Below are positions 11,829 to 54,143 of a DNA stretch of 64,000 bases, in pieces. The translations under genes were made by a program, and so were the position numbers. This DNA is from Massospora cicadina (Eukaryota > Entomophthoromycota > Entomophthoromycetes > Entomophthorales > Entomophthoraceae). Location: the NCBI GenBank assembly GCA_022478985.1, contig JAKSZP010014904.1, positions 1 through 64,000 on the forward strand, read 5' to 3'. Below the pieces are notes generated by a model. It was not told the origin of the DNA. It saw only the letters and a list, made by a program, of their open reading frames with translations, and searched no databases. Position 1 is the first letter of the stretch. Every line of letters begins with the position of its first letter.

Positions 11829-12099
11829 TGTCATGGAAGCGGCTGATAAGAATTAGACTGGGCTCCCAGTTGGGGTGTGTGAGAACCCAGCTGAGAGCCC
11901 AGAATGCCAAGGGCACAGCAGTCCGTGCAACTAGAAGAAGGGGAGATCTAGTGGGGACGTGAGGAAAGAAGATGTTTATAAACATACCAAAGGCCCCCAA
12001 GGCAAACCAGATGGTTGCAATGGGGGCAACCGCGAGTCTTGTAGGGGCAACACCCAAGGGCAGGAGAGTGGGGAGGATGACAACTCCTCCAGGGTTCAC
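11829..12099 (-). pseudogene. LTR-encoded peptide, R-U5 block (solo LTR)
   Basis: Starting at the minus-strand ATG (12099), the frame runs to the LTR end and by chance on into the RT. It is hydrophobic. Pieces such as VPLAFWALSWVL and WEPSLIL align with VPLAFWFAVQVL and WQASLIL in element 1's LTR, and AFGMFI and TPLAF-type pieces recur in both LTRs of element 4. In a full element this block would open the polyprotein, as seen in element 1. Confidence 0.55.
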
Positions 12100-12506
12100 A
12101 GTTGCTGGACCTCAGTTATGAGTAGGTGAGTCTGTGCTCCAGAGAGGAGTGGCACAGGGCCCACCGCGCGGGCAGGGGTGCTGTCAGAGGGGTAAACAGA
12201 CCTGCGACAAGTGTTAATGCCTAGTCCTCCTTGGTTGGGGTACTCTGGAACCCTCAGGTGGGTGGGTTTAGCGGTGGACAAGCCAGGTGTGGAGGGTGAG
12301 TCCGCGGGCATCAGGGCAGGGGCGCCCTGAGGCTGCTCTTGTAGGGGAGCACTCTCGGAAAACCTGACAGCAAAGCAAACGGACAGGTTCACATTTGACG
12401 GGTACACAAAAATGGATGGAGAGTTGACTCCATCATCGAGAACTAGGCAGTTTACCACAGATACAATCCACCACCACGTGGTGGGTTGAGTGACCAGATG
12501 ACCCAT
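12096..12506 (-). pseudogene. LTR-encoded peptide, second U3 block (solo LTR)
   Basis: This 136-codon minus-strand frame contains VNCLVLDDGVNSPSIFVYP, then a Pro/Ser/Thr-rich tail. Element 1's LTRs have a weaker counterpart (VTALGTIDKG near 41670; VTASGTIDEG near 36755). It reads like part of a larger LTR protein, but the homology is less certain than for the first block and no function can be named. Confidence 0.4.
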
Positions 12507-12666
12507 TCAGCAATCATTGGGATGATTGTTTGGGTGGCAGCATGCTTTGCCAGATTGATCGGCAGAATTTTGAACAAGAAAACAAACAGGCGGAGTCCAC
12601 AGCAAGGCGTTTGGGGTATTCGGGCTTTATTTTAGCTTAAAGCACAGGGAGAATAGAGAATGAACT

Positions 12667-12695
12667 GACAACTGCCCATTGGCAGGGCAGTTGCC
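12667..12695. repeat. LTR stem-loop (solo LTR)
   Basis: GACAACTGCCC and GGGCAGTTGCC form an 11-bp stem with one mismatch around a 7-nt loop. An equivalent stem-loop sits in both LTRs of element 4, next to a TATA box. Confidence 0.55.
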
Positions 12696-13179
12696 TTAAG
12701 TATTGGGAGAATCGCATAGTGGGGAGGCTGAGGTATTGGGTGATTGGGGATCAGCGATAAGGTTTGGTTGGCTGGCGGGTGGGGGAGTGGAGGGATGCTA
12801 AAATCTTGGCAAAAATCAAAAAAAAACTTTTGCAGATTTTCCCAAATTTTAGGGGCCAGACCAGGTCAATGGTACCAATCTGGGCCTTGACCATTCAAGT
12901 TGAGCTGCTTACATGGTTCAGATTTCCTGGATTCATCCCAGGGGGCTGTGGCCTTGGTGCCCAGTTGTCTACAACCTGGTCCAAACTCTCAATTTTATTG
13001 TCCACACGATCCAAACTTCCTGGATCTGTTCCAAGGGGTAGGGGCAACTGGTCCAAGTCACTCGTAACCTGGTTTAAATCCTGAATTGAGTTCCAATCTG
13101 ATTTTTAGACCTGACCAGTCTGGACCAGCTCCATAAGCCCAGAATTTGCAGATTGGGCTCCAATACTAGCACTGGCTGT

Positions 13180-13410
13180 TTACACAAAATTTTGGTAAAT
13201 TTTCCCTGGTGAGTGAGGGGTCCCAGGGGCCCGCCCATGGCCCCTGGCCTGCATAATCTCCTGGCAGGTCCCCTCTATTAATTTTACTGGGGTTGGGAAG
13301 GGGGAGGAGGGAGATATCTGAATATCTCTAGGAGGAAGGGCAGTCACCCAGCGCTCATCAACCACGTGCGCCAGGTCACTCAACTGTGACAGGGGGTCCA
13401 CTTGGGCCTT
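13180..13410 (-). pseudogene. LTR-encoded peptide, U3 block (solo LTR)
   Basis: In the U3 part of the solo LTR the minus-strand frame reads PLSQLSDLAHVVDERWVTAL, then runs open to a stop near 13180. The same peptide appears in element 1's LTR (GNLAHMVDKRWVTALP), element 4's LTR (SNIAHAVDVWLVTAL) and, with a stop in place of the Trp, element 2's LTR (LKHTLDQR-VQV). The protein-level match exceeds the DNA match. I know no domain with this sequence and cannot assign a function. No start codon is certain. Confidence 0.6.
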
Positions 13411-13485
13411 TGACCCCCTTTTGGTCTGAAAGGGATGCTGCTCCCTATCCAGTTGTAGGGACTGGTCCACAGGACTTACATGGGG

Positions 13486-26960: not shown

Positions 26961-28922
26961 TTTTCTTTCCACTCAATCTCTTTTTGAGCGAATTTTTATA
27001 TAATGTTTTTTTATCCACCACCATCTGGCCACGTTCATTTACCGTTTGATGTCCTCAGATCTGCTGCCTGCTGCCCCAGTGTGGGGCGGCGGTTCTCCAC
27101 CACCTAGCAGTTCCACCCTGCGGGGAAACGCATTCAAATGGGCTCAAATAGTCTGCCAAACTCTTCTGGCTGATTTTTCCCCCACAGGAATTAGCGCTCC
27201 ACCTTGCGCGCATCCACCCATCTCACCCCCATCCTCTTGACCTTCCTTAGTCCAACAGTTGATTTTGCCTCTGTGTCAACTACAGGCGTTCATTCCCATA
27301 TGCCAACAAAGCAATCATCAAACTTGCCACACTGCCTTTGCAAAAGCTGGCTTTATCAATTTCCGCCCTTTTCAAGGGCTAATTTGACATAGGCTTCCAG
27401 ATGAAGGAGGATGCTGAAAAAGCGTTGACTCCTTTGACTATAAAAATACCCCAATTCCCACTACCTGTACTAACCTCCCTTCTGACAACATATTAGTGGT
27501 ATCATTTTTCAAACCTCCCTTCGCACCTTTCACCCCAAATTCTATATGAGCAGCTGATGTTGGGGCTTGTGGCTTATGGCTCTCAACCCAATCTCATCTT
27601 CACCATTCCTTCTGGTTTATAGCGTCTTGTTGCCCCTTGCACTACTGCCACCATCACCCCACACCACTCTTCCATTGTCCAACAAATCACCACATGTGCT
27701 CGCATTGCAGCAGCACCAAAGCATTTCTTTTGGCTCAGGTCAGCAATGATCATCAGATTTTTCTCCTCTGTTTTAAATTTGACCATTCTATTTTTTAGCA
27801 CTAGTGGTTCCCAATTGAATTTGACCATTCTAAAAAAGTCCTGCCCCCATGCCGCTCCATCTGGTCCTGTCTCTGAAACCTTGTCAACGGCATCTGAATG
27901 GGGTGTTTTGTGGCCCCCTCCCACCAACACTCTTGCTTTCTGGGCCAGAGTGGGGAATCTGCACCCACCACAACCCCAGCCACGTTCACACATCTGAATT
28001 CACCCCAGACATTTTGAATCAGGCTTGTCCCACTGTTTACCTCCAAGAAGCTCCCCATTCGCCTACTACCACCCACCATAATCCTGCCTCCACTATTCCC
28101 ATGAACCAGAATATGTGGGCCCTTTTGTATGAGGTTGACGAATCAGGTGCAATAGTCAGTAAGTCGTATGAAGAATCAGGTGAGGAAGCCCCAGATGGGT
28201 ATGACTGGAAAGAATTTTTTTCCTCAGATTTTGACAAACCTATCCCACCCAGAAGTTATGCCTTAAAACCCAATGCTATCCCCTGAAAGAGTGACCACCA
28301 GCTTGCCTTAGTGGCGGTGACCTCCACCCATTGTCACCAACTCCATATCGCAGTAGCAAATTCTGTTGAAGAATTCCAAAAAGGCCTGGCTGTAGTTAAT
28401 TCCCCCTTGATTTCACTAAATATGCGAAGGAAGAAATCAACAAATTGGTCAAAGTTGCTGAAACCTCTGCCAATCATGTTTCAGAACTATCAATCTTTGA
28501 CTTAAAACCCATCAACACCAAGAAGAACCTTGTCACTTTTCCCTACTTCCTTATGCCCGCCTTCAGGCTGGACATTATCTGGCAGGATTAGTGAAGCTAT
28601 CATCGAGGTCAATATTGCACATCTCAATCCTTTTATACTACACCTTGACCCCCACCATGCTGACTCCCTGACGCCCTTTCTCTTGGCCTCAATTTGCTTC
28701 TACAACGCTGCTTCCCCTGATGGGGGTAATACACATGCAGATGCGCCACCCATCCCTTCCCCCTCTGCCATGGTGGGTTAGCGGTCCTCCAGCCCATGAC
28801 TGGTTGGAGATTTTATTTTGTTCTGATTTTCATTTTTTTTGTTTCAGATTTGTTTGCTCTTTGAGTATTGGTATTGTCCATCCCCTGGTCAGCGTGCCTC
28901 AAATAAAATTTAAATTTAAAAA
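26961..28922 (+). mobile_element. ORF1-only retroposon, copy 1
   Basis: The element starts TTTTCTTTCCACT and ends in the LINE-type tail CAAATAAAATTTAAATTTAAAA. It is flanked by TTAGCAGCTTAGAT (26947-26960) and TTAGCAGCTTAAAT (28923-28936), a 14-bp target duplication with one mismatch, typical of LINE-mediated insertion. It encodes one degraded protein region and no endonuclease or RT. A second copy with the same ends and length lies at 43306-45906. I infer a non-autonomous half-LINE that uses the LINE machinery through the shared 3' tail. Confidence 0.85.
27046..28790 (+). pseudogene. ORF1-like protein of the retroposon, copy 1
   Basis: Comparing both copies, one degraded reading frame runs from about 27046 to 28780 in pieces: an N-terminal part rich in Pro/Ser, a middle part, and the clearest piece, 27849-28286, with MWALLYEVDESGAIV and SGEEAPDGYDWKEFFSSDF. 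Copy 2 has the same block (LWALFDEVDKTGAIV, EEAPDGYDWEEFF). The C-terminal part reads HLNPFILHLDPHHADSLTPF. An acidic patch and a Pro-rich N terminus are visible; no zinc knuckle or RRM is apparent. LINE ORF1 proteins bind RNA, but that function is not shown here. This copy has frameshifts and stops. Confidence 0.5.
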
Positions 28923-29808: not shown

Positions 29809-30702
29809 TGTCATGTTTACATAACTTAATAGGGTCATCAACAGCAAAGACAAGGCTGGGCGTCAGGAGGCCCAAAAGGTCAAGTTCCAGGACATTCCTG
29901 ACCTAAAGCACACCTTGGACCAACGCTAGGTACAGGTCAGATATGCCCAGGTTGGTCCAGGTGAGGTGCATAACGCCTAACCCCTTATTATGGCTTTGGC
30001 ATTAAAACGGACGAGTTACTTTTTAAATGATGATTGCTCAATTCAGTTACTTGGTTAATGGGGATTTAGAACCCATTTGATTTATAAAATTTCCAGCTTG
30101 CGTCAGCCTTGACTTAAATCAATTACTCAAGTTTGGACAATTTGGAAGTATAGTACTGTGTCAGATGGAAGTGTGCGCTTATTAGTGCACCTGGGCTTAG
30201 CACCACTTCCACCAATGAATGATTTCCCCATTTTGGTTTAAATATAAATCTTTGATACCAACATTCCTCGTTGGTTATCTTCCTCCTTAATAAGAATCCC
30301 CTCATTAGTTTACATTTTATTCAAACTAACTCAGGCAAACCTGTGCACGGACCTCTTTGAGGAGGTCTTGCATAACTTTAGCCGATATATTTGCATTAAA
30401 AATTCAACTGAACCAAGGCACTGCTGGGCTACCCTGGTTCCCTCCAGACCAAGGCACCCGAGCCCTCTATCCCTGATCAAAGCTTGGATATGGACACCCC
30501 TTTATGGCCCAACCAAGTCTTTTGTTCATTTGTTCTCTATTAATCTGTGCCATGCTAAACATCTCGCCCTATGTTATTATAGCTCAAGCACCCTCTGTGG
30601 GGATATCCTTCCCTAGTACTGACAGCTAGTTCCCTGGTTTGGGGTCTGTGCACTATGCACCACCACTTTGAGAACTGGAGAAAAATAGACACTCTCTTGA
30701 CA
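29809..30702 (+). repeat. Element 2 5' LTR (894 bp)
   Basis: TGTCATGTTTACATAACTTA to CTCTTGACA. TATAAATC at 30243 lies about 28 bp before TTGGTTATCT (30271), the predicted transcript start. Long stretches match 34943-35840, with a few substitutions and 1-bp indels. Confidence 0.92.
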
Positions 30703-34559: not shown

Positions 34560-34940
34560 CCCCCTTGTTCCAAATCTTTTTAGTCTTCCATGAAAGCAAG
34601 CTTACGTTGTTTGAGGGTCCCCCAACAGAGACTCTCAAAGCTTATCTCGTGGATGGGGCGCTGCAGTGAGAAGTGGATAAATTGCAGCCTCTTGTTGGTA
34701 AGAAGAAGACTCAGGTATCTTGTATCCTGGAATGGATTTGATGCAGCGGAGAACAGGTGGGTCCCAGCGCGTGACTGCGCCCATGCCTAAGACCTAATTG
34801 TAGCATTCCACGAGTATTTTTCTGGGGTCGCAGGATCTAAGTCCAAGCAAGCCATTGCTGCCATGAAGTTGGCTCCTGCTACAAAACTTTTCTTGATGAA
34901 TGTCCATGGAGGGGGTGGAGCCTGAAAAGGAGGAGAGGGT
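34560..34940 (+). pseudogene. Element 2 chromodomain
   Basis: The frame 34590-34790 ends LRYLVSWNGFDAAENRWVPA, matching the YLVxWxGxxxxExxWxP core of chromodomains, which steer chromovirus integration to marked chromatin. Past a stop it continues as VAFHEYFSG. Element 1 has the same domain in the same place. Confidence 0.75.
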
Positions 34941-34942
34941 AG
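34924..34942 (+). promoter_or_regulatory. Polypurine tract of element 2
   Basis: GAAAAGGAGGAGAGGGTAG abuts the TGTCAT start of the 3' LTR. It is the RNase H-resistant primer for second-strand synthesis. Confidence 0.8.
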
Positions 34943-35840
34943 TGTCATTTTTACATGACTTAATAGAGAGCACAAACATCAAAGATAGGGCTTGGCGTCA
35001 GGAGGCCCAAAAGGTCAACTTTCAGGACCTTCCTGACCTAAAGCACACCTTGGACCAACGCTAGGTACAGGTCAGATATGCCCAGGTTGGTCCAGGTGAG
35101 GTGCATAACGCCTAACCCCTTATTATGGCTTTGGCATTAAAACGGACAAGTTACCTTTTAAATGATGATGGCTCAATTTGGTTACTTGGTGAATGGGGGT
35201 TTAGAACCCGTTTGATTTACAAAATTTTCAGCTTGTGTCAGTCTCAATTACAATCAAGTACTCGAGTTTGGACAATTTTGAAGTATAGTACTCTTTCAGA
35301 TGGATGTGTGCGCTTATTGGTGCACCTGGGCTTGGCACCACTTTCACTGATGGATGATTTTCATATTTCAATTATAAATATTATTCTTTGATACCAAATC
35401 TTCTTCATTGGTTGTCTTCCTCCTTAATAAAAATCCCCTCATCAATTTACATTTTATTCATGCTAACTCAGGCAAACCTTTGCGTGGACCTCTTTGAGGA
35501 GGTCTTGCATAACTTTAGCCAATTTATTTTCACTGAAATTTCAACTGCACCAGGGGCACCGCTGGGCTGCCCTGGTTCCCTCCAGACCAAGGCACCCGAG
35601 CCCTCTATCCCTGATCAAAGCTTGGATATGGACACCCCTTTATGGCCCAACCAAGTCTTTTTGTTCATTTGTTCTCTATTAATCTGTGCCATGCTAAACA
35701 TCTCACCCTATGTTATTATAGCTCAAGCACCCTCTGTGGAGATATCCTTCCCTAGTACTGACAACAAGTTCCCTGGCGTGGGGCCTTGCACCATGCACTA
35801 ACATTCTGGGAACTGTAGAGTCATAGATAATCTCTTGACA
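34943..35840 (+). repeat. Element 2 3' LTR (898 bp)
   Basis: Direct-repeat partner of 29809-30702. TATAAATA at 35373 and predicted transcript start A35407 give U3 of about 464 bp and R-U5 of about 434 bp. In R-U5 an open frame runs from ATG 35459 to 35801 (hydrophobic near LFICSLLICAM). In U3 both LTRs have LKHTLDQR, a TAG stop, then VQV, the relic of the RWV peptide. Confidence 0.92.
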
Positions 35841-36347: not shown

Positions 36348-37501
36348 GGTAAGTCCTGAGGAAAACCCCCTGGGTGTTGATTGAGCCATATTCCCAATCC
36401 CAAGCAAGAAGGTATCAAAGAGGATGACTGTACCCCTCGTTACTCAGGGCGATATCGCCCACATGGTAGATGAGCGCTGGTAACAGCTTTTCCTTTTGGA
36501 TCCCTCCCCCGGTACCCACACTCACCTCAGCAGAACTGTTATGGGGTATTATTGAAATCTGCACCAAGATCACTGAAACAAAATTGATCAGAACAAAATT
36601 GAGTGGCAATCAGCCCGATGTTCAGATTTCAAATGGTCAAAAAGGGATGAAGACTGTTTATTGGCCAGAACCACTGATGGGTTTGATTGGCCAACACTAT
36701 AATTTTTAAAATCACCCTCCTCCTAAAATCATTGGGGATCATCCCCAATAGGCAGGTAACAGCATCAGGCACCATTGATGAGGGTTTGAAGCTTTCTGCT
36801 GGAAAATCAGGCATTGCACCTGACACAATGCTTCTGACCAAATGATTGGCCCAGCAACTGGGCATGGGCGGGTTGGGCGTCCCAACCCCATTCCCAAACA
36901 AATGGGCCCGCCCCTATGTGGGGTGGCCTTGGGGGATTCCTGCTGCTTGTCAGGCTAAATGCTGTCATGCCAACTGTCAGAAATGTAGCTGAGTCTTGGC
37001 TTGGATGTTTGAGGTCGAACTGAAAGTGACTCAGCCTGCAGCCAAATTCTTTGATTTTAGTTTCAAGTGAACTTATCCGCCCCATTCCCAAACAATTTGC
37101 CAGTTAAGTTGAACTTGAGGGACCCAATCCTGGCTTGTTTCCTCTCTAAATTGACCACTATTTAATCAGTTGCATCACACTGATAAAATTGTTGGTTGAT
37201 TTTCCTTTCTTTAATTTTCCATTAAAAAGCCTTTCCTAAAATCTAGTTTTTATGTTGGAAAACAAATCGCTTTTTCCGCCAACCCTTGCACTCCCCTTGG
37301 GGTTAAGGGCTGTACTCGCCTGGTATTTTATTATGTGTCTGTATGAGATTCTGGCTCTTTGGCAGTTATTAGGGAAAATCCTTTCCAGTTCCATATCCAT
37401 CGTACCAGCAGCAGTGACTTTGGCATTCTGGTTTGCCATTTGGGTGCTTTGGCACCTAGGCTGGCAGGCCAGTCTAATTTTTACTTGCTGTTTGCCTAAC
37501 A
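36348..37501 (+). repeat. Element 1 5' LTR (1,154 bp)
   Basis: Starts GGTAAGTCCTG (first T of TG mutated; the 3' copy has TGTAAGTCCTG) and ends GCCTAACA. Contains the U3 peptide block (36424-36709, with a 1-nt deletion at the Trp codon near 36480) and the R-U5 frame starting at ATG 37252. Confidence 0.92.
36424..36709 (+). pseudogene. LTR-encoded U3 peptide block (element 1, 5' LTR)
   Basis: The frame from ATG 36424 reads VPLVTQGDIAHMVDERW, then one missing G puts the rest in the next frame, where GNSFSFWIPPPVPTLTSAEL continues open to 36709. The 3' LTR lacks the deletion. In the 5' LTR this block lies upstream of the predicted transcript start, so it should be expressed only from the 3' LTR. 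Confidence 0.55.
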
Positions 37502-39645: not shown

Positions 39646-40740
39646 GTGGATCTTGTTAACGTGATTCCTGCCACCCAAATCCTGTCAATTGTCCCCCCTG
39701 TCATTTCTTTGGACGCTCTGGCCCCCAACGCTCCGTTAGTTGCTCTGGTCTTAGCCAGTCAAATGGCCTGTCCTGAGGGCGTGGAGCTGATCAAGCAGTT
39801 ATCTCACCAGAAGCATAAACACTCCCTATATTCATTGGAGGAAGGTCTTATTTATTTTTGGTCATGTGTTTGGGTCCCTCCCTCCTTCAGAACTGAGGTA
39901 TTCCACGCACATCATGATCCCCCCATGGTTGGTCATCCTGGTAATAAGTAATGCATCAACTTGATCAAGTGGGCCTACAATTGGGTGGGTTTGACAAAAG
40001 ATGTTCTGGGCTGGATCGCTGATTGTGTTACTTGTGTTTAGTCTAAGTCAGACCGCTCCAATAGAAATGGCCTTTTACACCCCTTACAGCAGGTGGAGGG
40101 TCCATGGACATCGGTGTCCATGGATTTTATTGTCAAACTCCCCTGCTCTAATGGGTTCACAGCAGTGATGGTGGTGGTAGATTGTTTCACTAAATTTTCC
40201 CTCTTTATTCCTTGCACTTCTGCAATTACATCAGAGGAGACTGCCCAGCTTTTTTATGTCATGTGTTCCCGATGTTTGGTCTCCTGTAGGAGATCATCAG
40301 CGACTGGGGTACACAGTTCACGGCGCGGTTTTGGAGTAAACTCCTATCTATCCTAAAAATATCCCCCTGCCATTCCACAGCATACCATCCCCAGTCCGAT
40401 GGACAGACTGAGCGAGTTAACCAAGTCCTCAAACAGTACCTGGATGCTATGCTGTGGCTGCATAGGACACCTGGGCCAATGACCTTCCCCTTACTCAATT
40501 TGCTTATAACAATGGAACGCACGCGTCTATGGTGTTTTCGCCCTATGAAGCGACGTTGGGTTATAATCCTTTGTTTTTGGTTGGACCTTTCTTGCAGCCT
40601 GAGGTCCAAGCTGCCGCGGATAACGTTGAACATATTAGGTCAACTCAATCCTTGTGTGGGAACACCTCACCAAAGCTATTGATGACTACAAGCAGTTTGC
40701 AGATTGTAAGCGGCTCCCAGGTCACAATATAACAGTGGGC
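39646..40740 (+). pseudogene. Element 1 integrase
   Basis: ORF 39646-39951 ends with the zinc module, HAHHDPPMVGHPGNK, and CVTC follows past a stop near 40030. ORF 40093-40356 has WTSVSMDFIVKLPCSNGFTA and VVVDCFTKFSLFIPC, containing the first Asp of the core. After a frameshift near 40250, [12 protein letters not shown] (second Asp intact) and, at about 40380, [14 protein letters not shown] (catalytic Glu) follow. Then [15 protein letters not shown] sequence leads to the chromodomain. Confidence 0.8.
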
Positions 40741-41263
40741 TCCTATGTTATGCTCGATACCCACCATTTACGAATTCAAGCTCCTTGCTGTGAATTTGCA
40801 AGTAAGCATTCAGGCCCCCATTTGGTGGAAGAGGTCTTGGGTAATGGTGCATTCTGGTTGAAGCTTCTGACTCACTAGAAATAGCATCCCATCTTCCACG
40901 TTTCCCAGCTGTCACCTTTCAAGGGTATAGTTCCCATGGAACCTGAACTGATCATCATCAAGGATGCGGAAGAGGCTGAGGTGGATAATATCCTGCCATC
41001 CCATAAGTCCTGACAGTCCTTTCAATATCTCATGGCTTGGAAAGGGTATCCGGCCTATGAGAACAGTTGGGTCAAGGCGCGCGATTGTGCAAACTGTATG
41101 GAACTGGTCAAAGCATTTCACAAATCCCACCCCAATGCTCCCCGCCCACCCCAAAAAACCACGATGGTAATGGCGATCAAGTTACCCAAGGCGCACAAAA
41201 ATGTGGCCCTTGTTCAGTTTCCTGGTGGTGGCGCCCTTCCTTTGAAAAAGGAAAGGGAAATGT
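40740..41263 (+). pseudogene. Element 1 chromodomain and pol C terminus
   Basis: Following an SH3-like segment (KHSGPHLVEEVLGNGAFWL) and IFHVSQLSPF, the chromodomain reads SFQYLMAWKGYPAYENSWVK near 41020-41075, then CANCMELVKAFHKSH. The tail GALPLKKEREM stops at 41261-41263, in the first bases of the 3' LTR, so the purine tract is itself coding. Element 4 keeps a matching tail. Confidence 0.8.
41244..41260 (+). promoter_or_regulatory. Polypurine tract of element 1
   Basis: GAAAAAGGAAAGGGAAA abuts TGTAAGTCC, the 3' LTR start. Confidence 0.85.
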
Positions 41264-41336
41264 AAGTCCTGGGAAACGCCCTCTGGGTGTTGATTGGGCC
41301 ATTTTCCCATTCCTGAGCAAGAAGGTATCAAAGAGG

Positions 41337-41540
41337 ATGGCTGTACCCCTCATTACTCAGGGCAATCTCGCCCACATGGTAGACAAGCGCTGGGTAACAG
41401 CTCTTCCACTTTGGATCCCTCCCCCGGTATCCACACTCACCTTGGCAGAACTGTTATGGGGTTTTAGTGAAATCTGCACCAAGATTGCTGAAGTGAAATC
41501 ATTCAAAACAAAATTGAGTGGAAATGAGCCCAATGTTTAG
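41337..41540 (+). CDS. LTR-encoded U3 peptide (element 1, 3' LTR)
   Basis: From ATG 41337 the frame reads MAVPLITQGNLAHMVDKRWV and continues open through TALPLWIPPPVSTLTLAELL to a TAG at 41538-41540. The frame is also open upstream, back into pol in another phase. It is the best-preserved copy of the RWV block, which recurs in four LTR types. In the 3' LTR it would be transcribed, downstream of pol. No known domain, signal peptide or membrane segment is evident. It could be the end of a longer LTR protein rather than a free ORF. Confidence 0.45.
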   Translation: MAVPLITQGNLAHMVDKRWVTALPLWIPPPVSTLTLAELLWGFSEICTKIAEVKSFKTKLSGNEPNV

Positions 41541-42165
41541 ATTTCAAATGTCAAAAAGGGATAAAGACTGATCTATTGGCTGGAATTGCTGACAGTTTCT
41601 GATTCAGCCAACACTACAATTAAAAAAATCACCCCCCTCCTAAAATTGTTGGGATCATCCCCAATGGGCAGGTAACAGCATTGGGCACCATTGACAAGGG
41701 TCCAAAGCTTCCTGCCAGAAAATTGGGTGTAGCGCCTGACACAACGCTTCTGACAAAATGAACGGCCCAGCGACCAGGCATGGGCGGGTTGGGGTCTTGA
41801 ACCCATTCCCAACCAAATGGTCCTGCCCCTACATGGGGTGGCCTTGGGGGATTCCCGCTGCTCGTTGGGCTAAATGCTGTTGCACCAACTGTCAGAAATG
41901 TAGCTGAGTCTCAGCTTGGACGTTCAAGGTCAAACCAACAGTGACTCAGCCTGCCGCCAAATTCTTTGATGTTGGTTCCCAGTGAACTTATCCACCCCAT
42001 TCCCAAACAATTTTCTGGTTAGGTCAAACTTGCGGGACCTGATCCCAGCTTGTTTCCTCTTTAAATCAACCACCATTTAATCAGTTGCATCACACTGAAA
42101 AACTATTGGTCAATTTTCCTTTCTTAAATTTTCCATCAAAAAGCCTTTCCTAAAATCTAGTTTTT

Positions 42166-42402
42166 ATGTTGGAAAATAAATCACCTTTTCCGCTGACCCT
42201 CGCACTCCCCTCAGGGTTAAGGGCCATACTCATCTGGTATTTTATTATGTGCCTGTATGAGATTCTGGCTTATCAGCAGTTATTAGGGAAAATCCTTTCC
42301 AGTTCCATATCCGTTGTACCAGCAGCAGTGCCTTTAGCATTCTGGTTTGCCGTTCAGGTGCTTTGGCACCTAGGCTGGCAGGCCAGTCTAATTCTTACTT
42401 GA
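42166..42402 (+). pseudogene. LTR-encoded R-U5 frame (element 1, 3' LTR copy)
   Basis: 78-codon copy of the start of the polyprotein seen at 37252, nearly the same protein (LILTWYF-type and VPLAFWFAVQVLWHLGWQ segments), ending at a TGA just before the LTR end. In this position it has nothing to lead into and is not expected to be used. Confidence 0.5.
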
Positions 42403-42420
42403 TGTTTGCCTGACAAAGTT

Positions 42421-43290: not shown

Positions 43291-43383
43291 AAAATTGCTA
43301 GTATCAAAAACTTTTCTTTCCACTTAATCTCACTTTTGATTGAATTTTAGAAAAAGTTTATTTTATCCACCACCATCTGGCCA

Positions 43384-45770
43384 CGTCCATTTCCCATTTG
43401 AAATCCTTGGATCTGCCGCCTGCTGCCCCAGTGTGGGGCAGCGGTGCTCCACCACCTAGCATTTCTGCTCTGTGAAGAAACACATTTGAATGGTCTCAAA
43501 TAGTTTGCCAAACTCTTCTGACCAATTTGTTCCCCCACAGGAGTTAGTGGTCCACCTTGCACGCATCCACCCATCATGCCCCCATCCTCTCACCCTTCCT
43601 CAGTCAAACATTTGATTTTGCCTCCATGTTGAGTACAGGCATTCAATCCCATTTTCCAATAAAGGAATCAATGAACTTGCCATTGCTGCCTTTGCACCAG
43701 CTGGCTTTATTAATTTCCACCCTTTTAAGGGCAATTTTGGAATAGGCTTTCAGATGAAGGAGGATGCTATAGCGGTGGCGTTAACTCCTTTGATTTATGA
43801 AAATACCCCAATTCCCACTACCCATACTCGCCTCCCTTCTGACACCTCATTGGTAGTATCATTTGCAAACCTCCCTTCTCACCCACCACCCCATATTCTA
43901 TATGAGCAGCTGATGTTGGGGCTTATGGCTTATGGCTCTCAACCTAACCTCTTCTTCACTGTTCCTTCTGGTGATGAGCGCCTTGCTGCCCCTTGCGCCA
44001 CTGCCACCATCATCCACACCACTCCTCCATTGCCTAACAAATCCCCCATGTGATTGCATTGCAGCAGCACTAGAGCATTTCTTTTGGGCTTGTGTTAACA
44101 ATAATCAATAGATTTGTCCTCTCTATTTCAAATTGACCATTCTAAAAAGTCCTGCCCCCATGCCGCTTCAACTGGTCCTGTCTTTGAAACCTTTTCAGCG
44201 GCATCTGAATGGGGTGTTTTGTTTCCCCCTCTCACCCAACACTCTTGCTTTCTGGGCCAGAGTGGGAAATCTGCACTCACTGTAATGGTCAAAAATGTCC
44301 CAGTTTTTGACCGCCATCTTGCCTTTGGATTGGCAGATTCAAAGTTGATGCTGACAGATTTCCTGATGTAATTTTCCTCAAGTTAAGAGTCTCAACTTCT
44401 CATACTCACTAATTTAACCTTGGATGTAGGGCAATTCGGAAATGTGGAAAGATGACATAGGTAAGTGAGGGTTTTGACCCCAAAATTAACCTTGTTTATT
44501 TATTAACAAAAATAAATATGCTGACGAATTTATCCTAATGACATAAGGCACCACAAATGACACCAGAAAAAAACAAGAGTATTTGGCAGATCAGTTCGCT
44601 GCCAAATCTCAATTTTTTGTTAAGGATACAAAAAGTGGGTCACCGCGGGATATCAGGTAAGACAAGGCAAGAGCAGCCCCAAGGCCACTAGAGAGACTCA
44701 TGTGAGGGTGGGAAATGAGAAAAATTTTGAACTGAGTTCAGAATCGCGCAGGCCTGACCTTTTAAGGTCACCCTTCTGGGGAGCCCCTCCGCACTTTTCT
44801 TCATGCCCCAAGGAGCATGAAGAATAGCTCAGGAGGGGCACAGCCCAGCGCCAAGACCGCATGCACCTCAAAACCCCAAAAAGGCGTTTTGACTCAAAAT
44901 TCAGATTTACAAATTTTGAGTCAAAATATAACAATCAGTTCAACCTGACTGTTACACTCACCACAACCCCCAGCCATGTTCACCCATCTAAATTCACCCC
45001 AGCCAATTGGAATCAGGCTTGCCCACTGTTCACCCCCAAGCAGCTCCCCATTTTCCTACTACTACCCACTCTAATCCTGCCTTCACTATTCCCAGGAACC
45101 AGAATCTGTGGGCCCTATTTGATGAGGTTGACAAGACAGGTGCAATAGTCAGTAATTCAGTTGATGAATCAGGTGAGGAAGCCCCAGATGGGTATGACTG
45201 GGAAGAATTTTTCCTCAGATTTTGACAAACCTATCCCACACAGATGTTATGCCACAAAACCCAATGTTATCCCCTTCCAGAGTGACCACCAGCTTGCCTT
45301 AGCAGCAGTAGCCTCCCCCCATTGTCTCCAACTCTGTATCACAGTAGCAAAGTATTTTGAAGAATTCCACAAAGGCTGACTGTAGTTAATTTACCCATGA
45401 TTTCCCTGAAAATGTGTAAAATGAAATCAATAAATTGGTCAAAGTTACTAAAGCCTCTGCTGTTTATGTAGCTGAACTATTGACCTTTGACCCAAAATCT
45501 GCTATCACCAGTCAAGCTGTAGACAGCTTTTCCCTACTTCCTGATGCCCACCCTCAGGCTAAATATCCCCTGGCAGAATTAGTAAAGTTATCATCGAGGC
45601 TAATATTGCGCATCTCTATTCTTTTATACTACACCTTGACCCCCACCATGCTGATGCCCTGACACCCTTGCTCTTGGCCTCAATCCGCATCTATGCTGCT
45701 GCTTCCCCTGATGTGGTTGATGCATATGCAGATGTGCCACCCATCCCTTCCTCCCCCTCTGCCATGGTGG
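43384..45770 (+). pseudogene. ORF1-like protein of the retroposon, copy 2
   Basis: Collinear with copy 1. The clearest pieces are 43754-44053 (an N-terminal part, with PPHILYEQLMLGLMAYGSQP), 45007-45225 (LWALFDEVDKTGAIVSNSVD, SGEEAPDGYDWEEFF) and 45435-45662 (VTKASAVYVAELLTFDPKSA). Conservation of these blocks in two separate insertions supports one real protein of several hundred residues. The solo LTR and several frameshifts break it. No recognised domain. Confidence 0.5.
44281..44956 (+). mobile_element. Solo LTR of another family, in retroposon copy 2
   Basis: A 676-bp insert relative to copy 1, starting TGTAATGGTC and ending CTGTTACA, flanked by CTCAC (44276-44280 and 44957-44961). TG...CA ends plus a 5-bp duplication identify a solo LTR. 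It shows no similarity I can see to the other LTRs here. A DNA element is less likely because the terminal match (TGTAA/TTACA) is short. Strand is not certain. Confidence 0.8.
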
Positions 45771-46071
45771 GTTAGCGGTCCCCAACTCCATGCCTGGTTG
45801 GAGGTTTTATTTTGTTCTGGTTTTCTGTTTAATTGTTTCAGTTTTTGTTTGCTCTTTGAGTATCAGTACTGTCTGTCCCCTGGTTGGCGTGCCTCAAATA
45901 AAATTTAAAATTGCTATTATCTCTAATTATAATAATGTGATAGTTAGGAATAACATGTAACATCACAGCGTTTACTTGGCCTACAGGAAATGCACCTACA
46001 GGTTCTGGGGTATATCCATAGCGGGATATCCACTTTGTTATAAAGGGTTCGAAATCTCATGTCTATCATGA

Positions 46072-51225: not shown

Positions 51226-51670
51226 TGTCATGATTATGAATATCTGAAAGAAGACTTCTCATCCAGTCTGAGAAGTCACTGCACAGTGGATGGACTAGAA
51301 TGCCAAGGGCGTAGATGACCTAACAACTTCAGAATGTGACATACTAAGGGTTAAGTGAAGATCAAACCATTTTATATGCATACCAAATGCCTCATAACAA
51401 TCAAGAAGGCTGTAATGAGGGCAACTGCAGGTCTTAATGGGGCAACCCTATGGTGGAAGAGACATGGAGGGTGACATCTTCTGGTTCTGCAGCTGTTGGT
51501 TGTTGTATACTAAAAAGTTAATGATTAATGGGCATAGGTTAGACAATTTGAACCAAACTGGTGGTAGATTGGAATGATTAACATGGTCACAAGGATTTAA
51601 CATGCAGAATGGATTGACAGTGGTTGTTAGTAATATATACTTTTACAAAATTAGTCACCACGTAGTACAT

Positions 51671-51802
51671 TGCTGGATTGATGGATTGGAACGCTTGCTC
51701 TATGAACTCTGATAGCATGCAGATGCTAGCATGCATTGCTGGATTGATGGATTGGAACACTTGCTCCATGAACTCTGATAGCATGCAGATGCTAGCATGC
51801 AT
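51671..51802. repeat. 66-bp tandem duplication inside the element 4 3' LTR
   Basis: Two copies of a 66-bp unit starting TGCTGGATTGATGGATTGGA (51671 and 51737), with a partial third at 51803. They differ at about two positions. The right LTR has a single worn copy, so the duplication arose after insertion. Each unit includes the palindrome-rich GCATGCAGATGCTAGCATGC. Confidence 0.85.
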
Positions 51803-51910
51803 TTCTGGATTGACTTGGTGTCCTAACAGTATGGCGTGGATGGTGAACATCAAATTAAAAGAGGTGGGAGGAAGATGAGTTTTTTTAAAGATTATAATAG
51901 GCAGTAAACT

Positions 51911-52429: not shown

Positions 52430-52565
52430 TCATTTTATAAAAGTATAAGAGTAAATATGGGTAGAGTGGTAGGATCCTTTGGAGTCAAGGCAGTAACCAA
52501 CCACACATCTACCGCATGAGCTATGTTGCTGATCTGGGAAAGGGGAGAAACAGGAGTCCTAGTGT
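52430..52565 (-). pseudogene. LTR-encoded U3 peptide block (element 4)
   Basis: The minus-strand frame reads TPVSPLSQISNIAHAVDVWL, then VTALTPKDPTTLP, to a stop near 52430. It aligns with PLSQLSDLAHVVDERWVTAL of the solo LTR and PLITQGNLAHMVDKRWVTAL of element 1. The third base positions and flanks differ widely, so the peptide match is not just recent shared DNA. Confidence 0.5.
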
Positions 52566-52639
52566 CCTTCTTACACCTGAAGGGATATTGTTATCAGTCC
52601 ATGCAGAGAGGATAAACTTCTAAACCTATATTATCCTTT

Positions 52640-54143
52640 CCTTTAAAGACAGGAAACATTTGACCTCTTTGGACATGAGAAAGTATAAAATTTATGCCTC
52701 TCAGGAAGTTTAATGGCATGAAGGAAAAACTTTCTGAGGGGGTGAGGAGATTCAAAATAGGATATGTAAAATTGTTTCACCAGTTCTATACAGTTTGCAA
52801 AGTCTTTTTTGATTACCCAGCTGTTCTCATATGAGGGTTAAACTTTCCAGGCTACCAGATACTGGACTGAGTGTCATGGCTTCCTTAAGGTCAAGGTCGC
52901 TTCAACCTCTGCCTCCTGGAAATGTCTACCATGATAAGTTCAGGCGATGTGAGCTGGGGCCCTTAATATAAACAACTGGGACACATAGAACACGTCATGA
53001 TTTTTCCAGTGTGTGGGGATTCTTGATCCTGAAGGCGCAACTACCAATGTTATACAGCACCTTATACAAGCCATAGCATTTTTATGTTAACTTTCCAGGA
53101 TGAGCCTTCATATCTAAGTGTTGGATATTTAATGTGACAAGGAATTCTTTCTTGAGCTCATGTCCTGGGTGATACTTCTATTCCAAAAACTTATTTTATA
53201 ATCTTCTACTGATTTTTGCAAGTTCTCCTGTACAAGACTCTGAGATTTACGCATATAATTCTGGCATTCTTATGAAGTGGGAATGATGGAAGTGAAGCAG
53301 GTGCAATATGGAATGATGGGCTGTATATTAATTTGGCCTTGAAAGCGGAAAGCTGGTAGAATTATAAAAGTATTATAATAGGAAAACTGCGTAGGGGAGG
53401 TTGGATTCCCATGTGTCATGAATAATTAAGGCATAGCAGCGGAGCATTGCTCCAGGGTTTTTCTACTCTCAGTATGATCATCCAATTGGGGGAACTAAGA
53501 GGTTGATTAACAGAGTTTGATATGAAATGGGTCAAGGAGCAACTCCAGAATCTGGCAGTAAATTGAAGTCTGTGGTCACTCACTATCTCCTTGGAAATAA
53601 TAATATAGAATGTATGTGTTTTAAATAAAGACGCAGTTTATTTAGACATCTACATTGCTTTTTATGAGATGAAAAGAGAAAAAATTGTTGAATTGATTAA
53701 CAATTACCATGATCACATCATACCTCTTAGAGGAGGGAAGCTCTACAACAAAATTAAAAATACCAAGGTCCAGGGGTTCTCAGGCTTTTGTATTATATGC
53801 AAATGACCTTTCTTCCCAGATCTGTCTGATTTAGAACATGTACATATCACACAATGTGATATCCATGCGGGGGTTTTCTTTGGAGAACCTTGGCAAGTTG
53901 TACGTTCTCATAACCAGTTCCTAATAATTTTTTGACACAGGGTGGCCCAAAGTTGGGGGATCATGTTATTCTTGTATCACCTGGTCGCGGAGGGTGGGTG
54001 ATACCCAAAATCTGTCCCTGAAGAAGAATACTCTATCCTTGAGAGCATAGCGAGTAAGCTTGTAGGTCTTGGTTTCCAAGCCATTATATAATAAAATCTA
54101 ATATAAAGGTCAGCAGGGTGACAAGAACTTGGTTGAGGAGAGG
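52640..54143 (-). pseudogene. Element 4 integrase (C-terminal part) and chromodomain
   Basis: Minus-strand frames give HWKNHDVFYVSQLF near 53010, then VQYLVAWK near 52860 and SYENSWV with CANCIELVK-type sequence near 52790 (here DFANCIELVKQFY), matching element 1's FQYLMAWKGYPAYENSWVK and CANCMELVKAFH. The tail AIKLPERHKFYTF parallels AIKLPKAHKNVAL. Upstream integrase is heavily worn. Element 3 inserted at 54148/61131 cuts this from the RT half. Confidence 0.7.

Follow-up and report, generated by a model that had tools for sequence, protein, structure and literature searches.

The 64,000-nucleotide stretch of Massospora cicadina DNA analysed here (contig JAKSZP010014904.1; hereafter the window) carries a similar short peptide near the start of four divergent types of chromodomain-family LTR, which raises the question of what a protein sequence is doing in the U3 region of a fungal retrotransposon. 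The first-pass annotation had placed the match at 41337 and taken it for a stand-alone LTR gene comparable to MMTV sag. Translation confirmed the peptides in all four elements: AHMVDKRWVTAL from 41370 (+) in the 3' LTR of element 1, AHVVDERWVTAL from 13371 (-) in a solo LTR, AHAVDVWLVTAL from 52521 (-) in element 4, and HTLDQR-stop-VQV from 35044 and from 29909 (+) in element 2. The match itself, though, begins at the LTR start and not at 41337.

The LTRs were called from LTR pairs and 5-bp target duplications, read by eye from the element ends (AACTT in element 2; those of element 1 and the solo LTR are given in Table 1). The 3' LTR of element 1 starts with TGTAAGT, abutting the polypurine tract, and ends in TGACA; its U3 frame opens at the second base. 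Several other repeats were seen in the window. Two of about 2 kb (26961-28917 and 43312-45912, 81-83% identical) lie on either side of elements 2 and 1 and are probably the LTRs of an older element inside which both inserted; 51668-51813, within the LTR of element 4, holds a tandem duplication (66-bp offset, 96% over 80 bp); and 307-447 and 1117-1245, some 670 bp apart, are inverted copies of one another (79% over 142 columns). Near their LTR ends, element 1 (42375-42397) and the solo LTR (11869-11847) have CAGTCTAATTCTTA in common, perhaps an end or RNA signal; the middles of these LTRs are not alignable.

Table 1. Retroelement features of the window that bear on the LTR-encoded peptide.
Feature	Position	Strand	Basis and remarks
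Solo LTR	11829..13480	-	CCCCA target duplication, by eye
Solo LTR, U3 frame (family B), 99 codons	13183..13479	-	
Element 2, 5' LTR	29809..30702	+	LTR pair; same peptide from about 29840
Element 2, chromodomain and tail remnant	34701..34916	+	tblastn E=5e-10
Element 2, 3' LTR peptide VSFLHD...HTLDQR (family D)	34942..35061	+	
Element 2, 3' LTR	34943..35840	+	LTR pair; ends by eye
Element 1, 5' LTR	36348..37501	+	LTR pair; same U3 frame, broken at codon 45
Element 1, integrase SH3 domain, chromodomain and tail, decayed, with stops	40651..41250	+	tblastn
Element 1, polypurine tract upstream of 3' LTR	41244..41260	+	sequence
Element 1, 3' LTR (family A)	41261..42415	+	LTR pair 85% identical; ends and AAGTT duplication by eye
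Element 1, 3' LTR U3 frame with peptide, 92 codons	41262..41537	+	LTR codon 1 at 41262
Element 4, U3 frame, 64 codons, stops at codons 12 and 13	52438..52629	-	
Element 4, integrase/chromodomain remnant	52685..53254	-	tblastn E=3e-30

LTR codons 1-51 of element 1, the solo LTR and element 4 aligned without gaps, and the differences at codon positions 1/2/3 numbered 17/18/31 between element 1 and the solo LTR, 25/22/35 between elements 1 and 4, and 21/15/33 between the solo LTR and element 4. The observed protein similarity was matched by none of 5000 column shuffles (P=0.0002), and the codon-position bias of the block gave P=0.0004. Comparing the LTRs of element 1 with each other revealed 8/3/5 and 7/5/5 differences and no third-position bias; since these two copies have diverged only since insertion, the protein-coding selection is real and older than the insertions. 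The peptide of element 2 is a weak match alone (P=0.003 against the solo LTR, 0.20 against element 1 and 0.62 against element 4, with 300 random sequences) and is backed by the protein alignment of another element 2-type copy. Coding on the antisense strand was rejected (next best frame, BLOSUM score 131 vs 250), as was, by eye only, an intron starting at the GTAAGT of the LTR start.

We searched the source assembly (1.47 Gb, 16,968 contigs) for further copies, which were grouped into LTR families A (element 1 type), B (solo-LTR type), C (a third type) and D (element 2 type, in which frame continuity was seen in one copy). Family A, found by DNA similarity, gave at least 40 matches (40 of 40 scored; 5465 first-look candidates), and 28 loci, two of them overlapping, were read from the 40 places. 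Copies of families B, C and D were retrieved by protein similarity, a criterion biased towards intact frames. Family B gave at least 150 matches (150 of 150 scored; 46,931 candidates), of which 30 loci were read, and family D likewise at least 150 (150 of 150 scored; 27,227 candidates), of which two with long open frames were fetched. The element 4 query also gave at least 150 (150 of 150 scored; 22,378 candidates); element 4 itself apart, these are 39-54% identical and not all need belong to family C, to which all five places picked for long open frames do belong.

In individual copies of all four LTR families, the pol frame continues into the LTR. At 3' junctions of family A, the reading frame with the chromodomain tail (AIKLPKAHKN...GGGALPLEKGKG) runs into the LTR in phase with the peptide, and in L022 a single open frame of 337 codons comprises SH3_Tf2-1 (Pfam E=4e-12) and Chromo (E=6e-8), then the polypurine tract, then 126 LTR codons. 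Of the four family B junctions, those of L047 and L054 are in phase with the LTR from the AIKL motif onwards, and all five selected family C copies are in frame across the junction; of the latter, L059 was read for 300 codons, with both SH3 and Chromo present and 84 codons in the LTR. The family D copy L061 has 224 codons with SH3 and chromodomain, 42 of them in the LTR. Pol passes the tract into the LTR without a stop in L022, L059, L060, L063, L064, L065, L061, L047, L054 and others. A gapless alignment of L022 with L059 spans 289 residues (53% identity, E=9e-113), from the integrase through the tract to LTR codon 79, so that 79 of these residues are LTR-encoded. The LTR peptide of L061 lies within its alignment to L059 (32% over 226 residues, E=2e-39), and in family D the phase in which the tract is read, counted from the LTR start, differs (KKEERV, where the others have KKGKG), which indicates that the link between pol and LTR is kept at the protein level. 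Pfam Chromo scored above its curated cut-off in L022, L011, L042, L059 and L061 and below it in L012, and found no match in L054, whose frame is cut; the chromodomain thus stands at the C-terminus of the integrase, as expected of chromoviruses. In one further copy, L062, an LTR of the element 2 type is inserted in the apparent RNase H region of another element; its peptide appears to be in frame with that region by chance and has no bearing on the continuity of pol and LTR.

From these data we conclude that the LTR peptide is very probably the C-terminal tail of the integrase within pol, whose frame crosses the polypurine tract into U3. A separate small U3 gene, translated on its own from a spliced or internal transcript as for MMTV sag, might be read from the 92- and 99-codon frames that are open from the LTR start and carry coding selection, and from single decayed copies, element 1 of the window included, in which pol is out of phase. 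It is nevertheless very unlikely, as copies of four families are in phase with pol and stop-free between, the protein alignment continues gaplessly through the tract, and the solo frame has no ATG ahead of the motif. A stand-alone gene is therefore not supported; what holds of the original interpretation is that the protein is under selection, that U3 is coding, and that the relevant coding copy is the one in the 3' LTR, which follows pol.

How often the junction is intact was also counted. Among 62 LTR starts of families A and B, 20 had a purine run, and 17 junctions were retained once L002, L055 and L032 were left out, LTR starts without pol upstream having been dropped before counting. Over all families, a tail could be recognised at 27 junctions, and in 15 of these the stretch from the AIKL motif onwards shares the frame of the LTR (7 of 13 in A, counting L024 despite its two stops; 2 of 4 in B; all 5 in C; 1 of 5 in D). 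When the six junctions chosen for long open frames are removed, 9 of 21 are in frame, little above one in three. The junction count by itself is thus weak, and the extension of pol rests on the uninterrupted frames, the gapless protein alignment between families and the codon evidence. Elements 1 and 2 of the window are among the shifted copies, and element 4, judged by eye, is shifted too, which is why the link had stayed hidden from the first-pass annotation. In element 1, the sequence just upstream of the tract matches the pol part of L059 (60.5% identity, E=1e-77), its frame being shifted relative to U3 close to the junction; the U3 frame of element 1 is the LTR-encoded end of pol, out of frame with the upstream pol remnant.

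Codon comparisons between families, from which codons with gaps were excluded, are in accord with this reading. Over LTR codons 1-50, column shuffling gave P values of 5e-5 to 2e-3 for codon-position bias in five pairs between A, B and C. The dN/dS comparison that had been suggested was made as pairwise pN/pS between families, and among A, B and C pN fell well below pS (0.46 vs 0.72 for L022-B054, 0.40 vs 0.85 for L022-C059, 0.30 vs 0.78 for B054-C059; 0.30-0.47 vs 0.70-0.89 over the seven A-B, A-C and B-C pairs reported). Across 23 family A and 29 family B copies, those with gaps in the first 150 nt being left out, the mean differences over 50 codons were 15.7/19.2/30.4 (P=0.0003), or 7.5/11.5/18.2 for transversions alone (P=0.007). 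These substitution patterns show that LTR codons 1-50 are under purifying selection in the comparisons among A, B and C, as the first reading of the window had surmised. In the pol tail upstream of the LTR, L022-C059 gave pN 0.26 vs pS 0.84 (several copies' pol-tail stretches start out of frame, which raises pN there; L022-L059 is the clean pair), and judged on such values the first 50 LTR codons appear constrained about as strongly as nearby pol.

That the block is a conserved U3 DNA element (a promoter, or an integrase or packaging site) with the peptide as a by-product is unlikely in the extreme. In its favour, DNA signals have to be preserved at LTR starts, and A, B and C all begin with TGTAAGT; against this, differences between families pile up at third codon positions, in transversions too, and column shuffling destroys the protein match. 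Nor is the block only the best-conserved stretch of DNA, as the bias is strong among A, B and C and absent between the LTRs of element 1. Within family A, whose copies were found by DNA, differences of 7.5/4.7/8.4 (transversions 1.4/1.5/1.5) likewise revealed no bias; the third-position excess within protein-found family B (2.6/3.3/5.5) may be a product of the way its copies were found. Family D gave no codon bias in its LTR part against A, B and C (34/32/32, 37/26/35 and 35/32/37; pN 0.58-0.65 and pS 0.67-0.90 over 49-50 poorly aligned codons), so that only frame continuity and protein alignment count for D. As to base composition, the window is CpG-depleted (observed/expected 0.31), and 360 of 444 variable columns in family A are transitions, 183 of them in a CG/TG/CA context; the alternation of Arg, Trp, Gln and stop codons among copies fits CpG decay.

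In A, B and C, about 133-172 LTR codons can be read before the pol frame closes. The first majority stop falls at codon 138 in A and 173 in B (23 A and 28 B copies, short ones dropped), and three family C copies stop at codons 134, 134 and 153; in the two remaining LTR frames, majority stops are spaced about 26-27 codons apart (29 such stops in A and 28 in B, both frames together). Stops occur in 20-50% of copies at frame 0 codons 93 and 98 in A and 125 in B. Conservation is strong over roughly the first 50 codons of the tail, and homology can be followed to about codon 80. Past codon 50, four of five pairs showed no significant bias (P 0.18-0.48; the fifth, P 0.038), and the distal tail may be without selection. 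In a tblastn comparison of A and B past codon 50, 254 query pieces gave 29 plus-strand matches at E<=0.05; among the best 8 of these 29 (E 5e-4 to 0.013), seven begin at codon 116 or later and one (E=0.003) at codon 50; we read these matches as chance.

Pfam returned no family for either window U3 frame and no domain in the LTR part. The solo frame, and after it an alignment, served as queries against protein sequences and yielded five proteins at E<=10, all hypothetical proteins of M. cicadina (L0F63_004130, L0F63_005916, L0F63_000393, L0F63_002447 and L0F63_005467; E 5e-24 to 0.024), which look like gene models built on LTR copies. In practical terms, five annotated proteins thus match the LTR frame, one of them weakly (E=0.024). 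A search with residues 155-300 of L059 gave 40 candidates and no match, a weak negative in that it missed even these five proteins, and a search of viral contigs gave 8 pattern matches and no relatives. The structure model of the solo frame has poor confidence (mean pLDDT 56, one short helix) and speaks neither for nor against a short linear motif.

The proposed course of events is as follows. Translation of pol on the full-length RNA would run into the U3 copy near the RNA 3' end, yielding an integrase with an LTR-encoded tail behind its chromodomain. Reverse transcription would then copy the tail segment into both LTRs, so that U3 would serve as coding and as LTR sequence at once, and solo LTRs would retain a stray end of pol. 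The 5' LTR copy would not be read as part of pol, in keeping with the decayed frame in the 5' LTR of element 1. With less certainty, the tail may act in the integrase, for example as a short motif binding a host or chromatin factor beside the chromodomain. Whether the tail is instead passive, its role limited to integrase stability with no part in tethering or targeting, we consider evenly balanced: the lack of any domain found, the poor model and the fast change past codon 50 speak for it, and the first 50 codons, about as constrained as nearby pol, against it. The tail could be a conserved host-factor or chromatin tether of Entomophthoralean chromoviruses, present in every LTR including solo ones, which helped Ty3 elements to fill these giant genomes. 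As a targeting module additional to the chromodomain and placed behind it, such a tether would be the fungal equivalent of the CR motif encoded in plant LTRs, possibly of independent origin; we regard this whole extension as speculative and rather improbable. Reports on this genome give 1.488 Gb and 92% transposable elements for the published draft (PMC9584336) and 56.8% for Ty3 elements (PMC11105155).

The nature of the LTR peptide is thereby settled as far as the above probability allows, and the idea of a fungal LTR gene is replaced by one that can be checked. The result also ties the evolution of U3 to protein constraint, which matters for classification and dating based on LTRs. Among known systems, MMTV sag is likewise a protein encoded in U3 of the 3' LTR; it is a separate gene with its own product, whereas the M. 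cicadina U3 frame is the end of pol, continuous with the upstream gene in four families.

Closer likenesses are found in plants. In Beta vulgaris, the gag-pol frame of Beetle7, Bingo1-4 and Bingo7 reaches into the 3' LTR, and in clades outside CRM the chromodomain is reported to precede the polypurine tract (PMC3605345). The M. cicadina families are like Bingo1-4 and Bingo7 in that pol runs into the 3' LTR, a likeness of architecture; Bingo differs in its plant hosts and its group II chromodomain. In plant centromeric elements of CRM group A, too, part of the integrase end is encoded by the 3' LTR, and an LTR-encoded CR motif takes the place of the chromodomain (PMC3059260). In M. cicadina the chromodomain is not so replaced: Pfam Chromo lies upstream of the tract and the LTR-encoded tail is added, and the position of the domain sets these families apart from CRM group A. 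A search of the open-licence literature with fixed phrases for LTR-encoded frames and pol running into the LTR returned plant precedents and no fungal one that we recognised, and the available part of a fungal LTR survey (PMC3248453) gave no description of pol running into the LTR. The architecture is thus already known from plant chromoviruses; it is extended here to a fungus, and what is new is the fungal case together with an integrase tail that follows an ordinary chromodomain and has been maintained by selection in divergent families of one genome.
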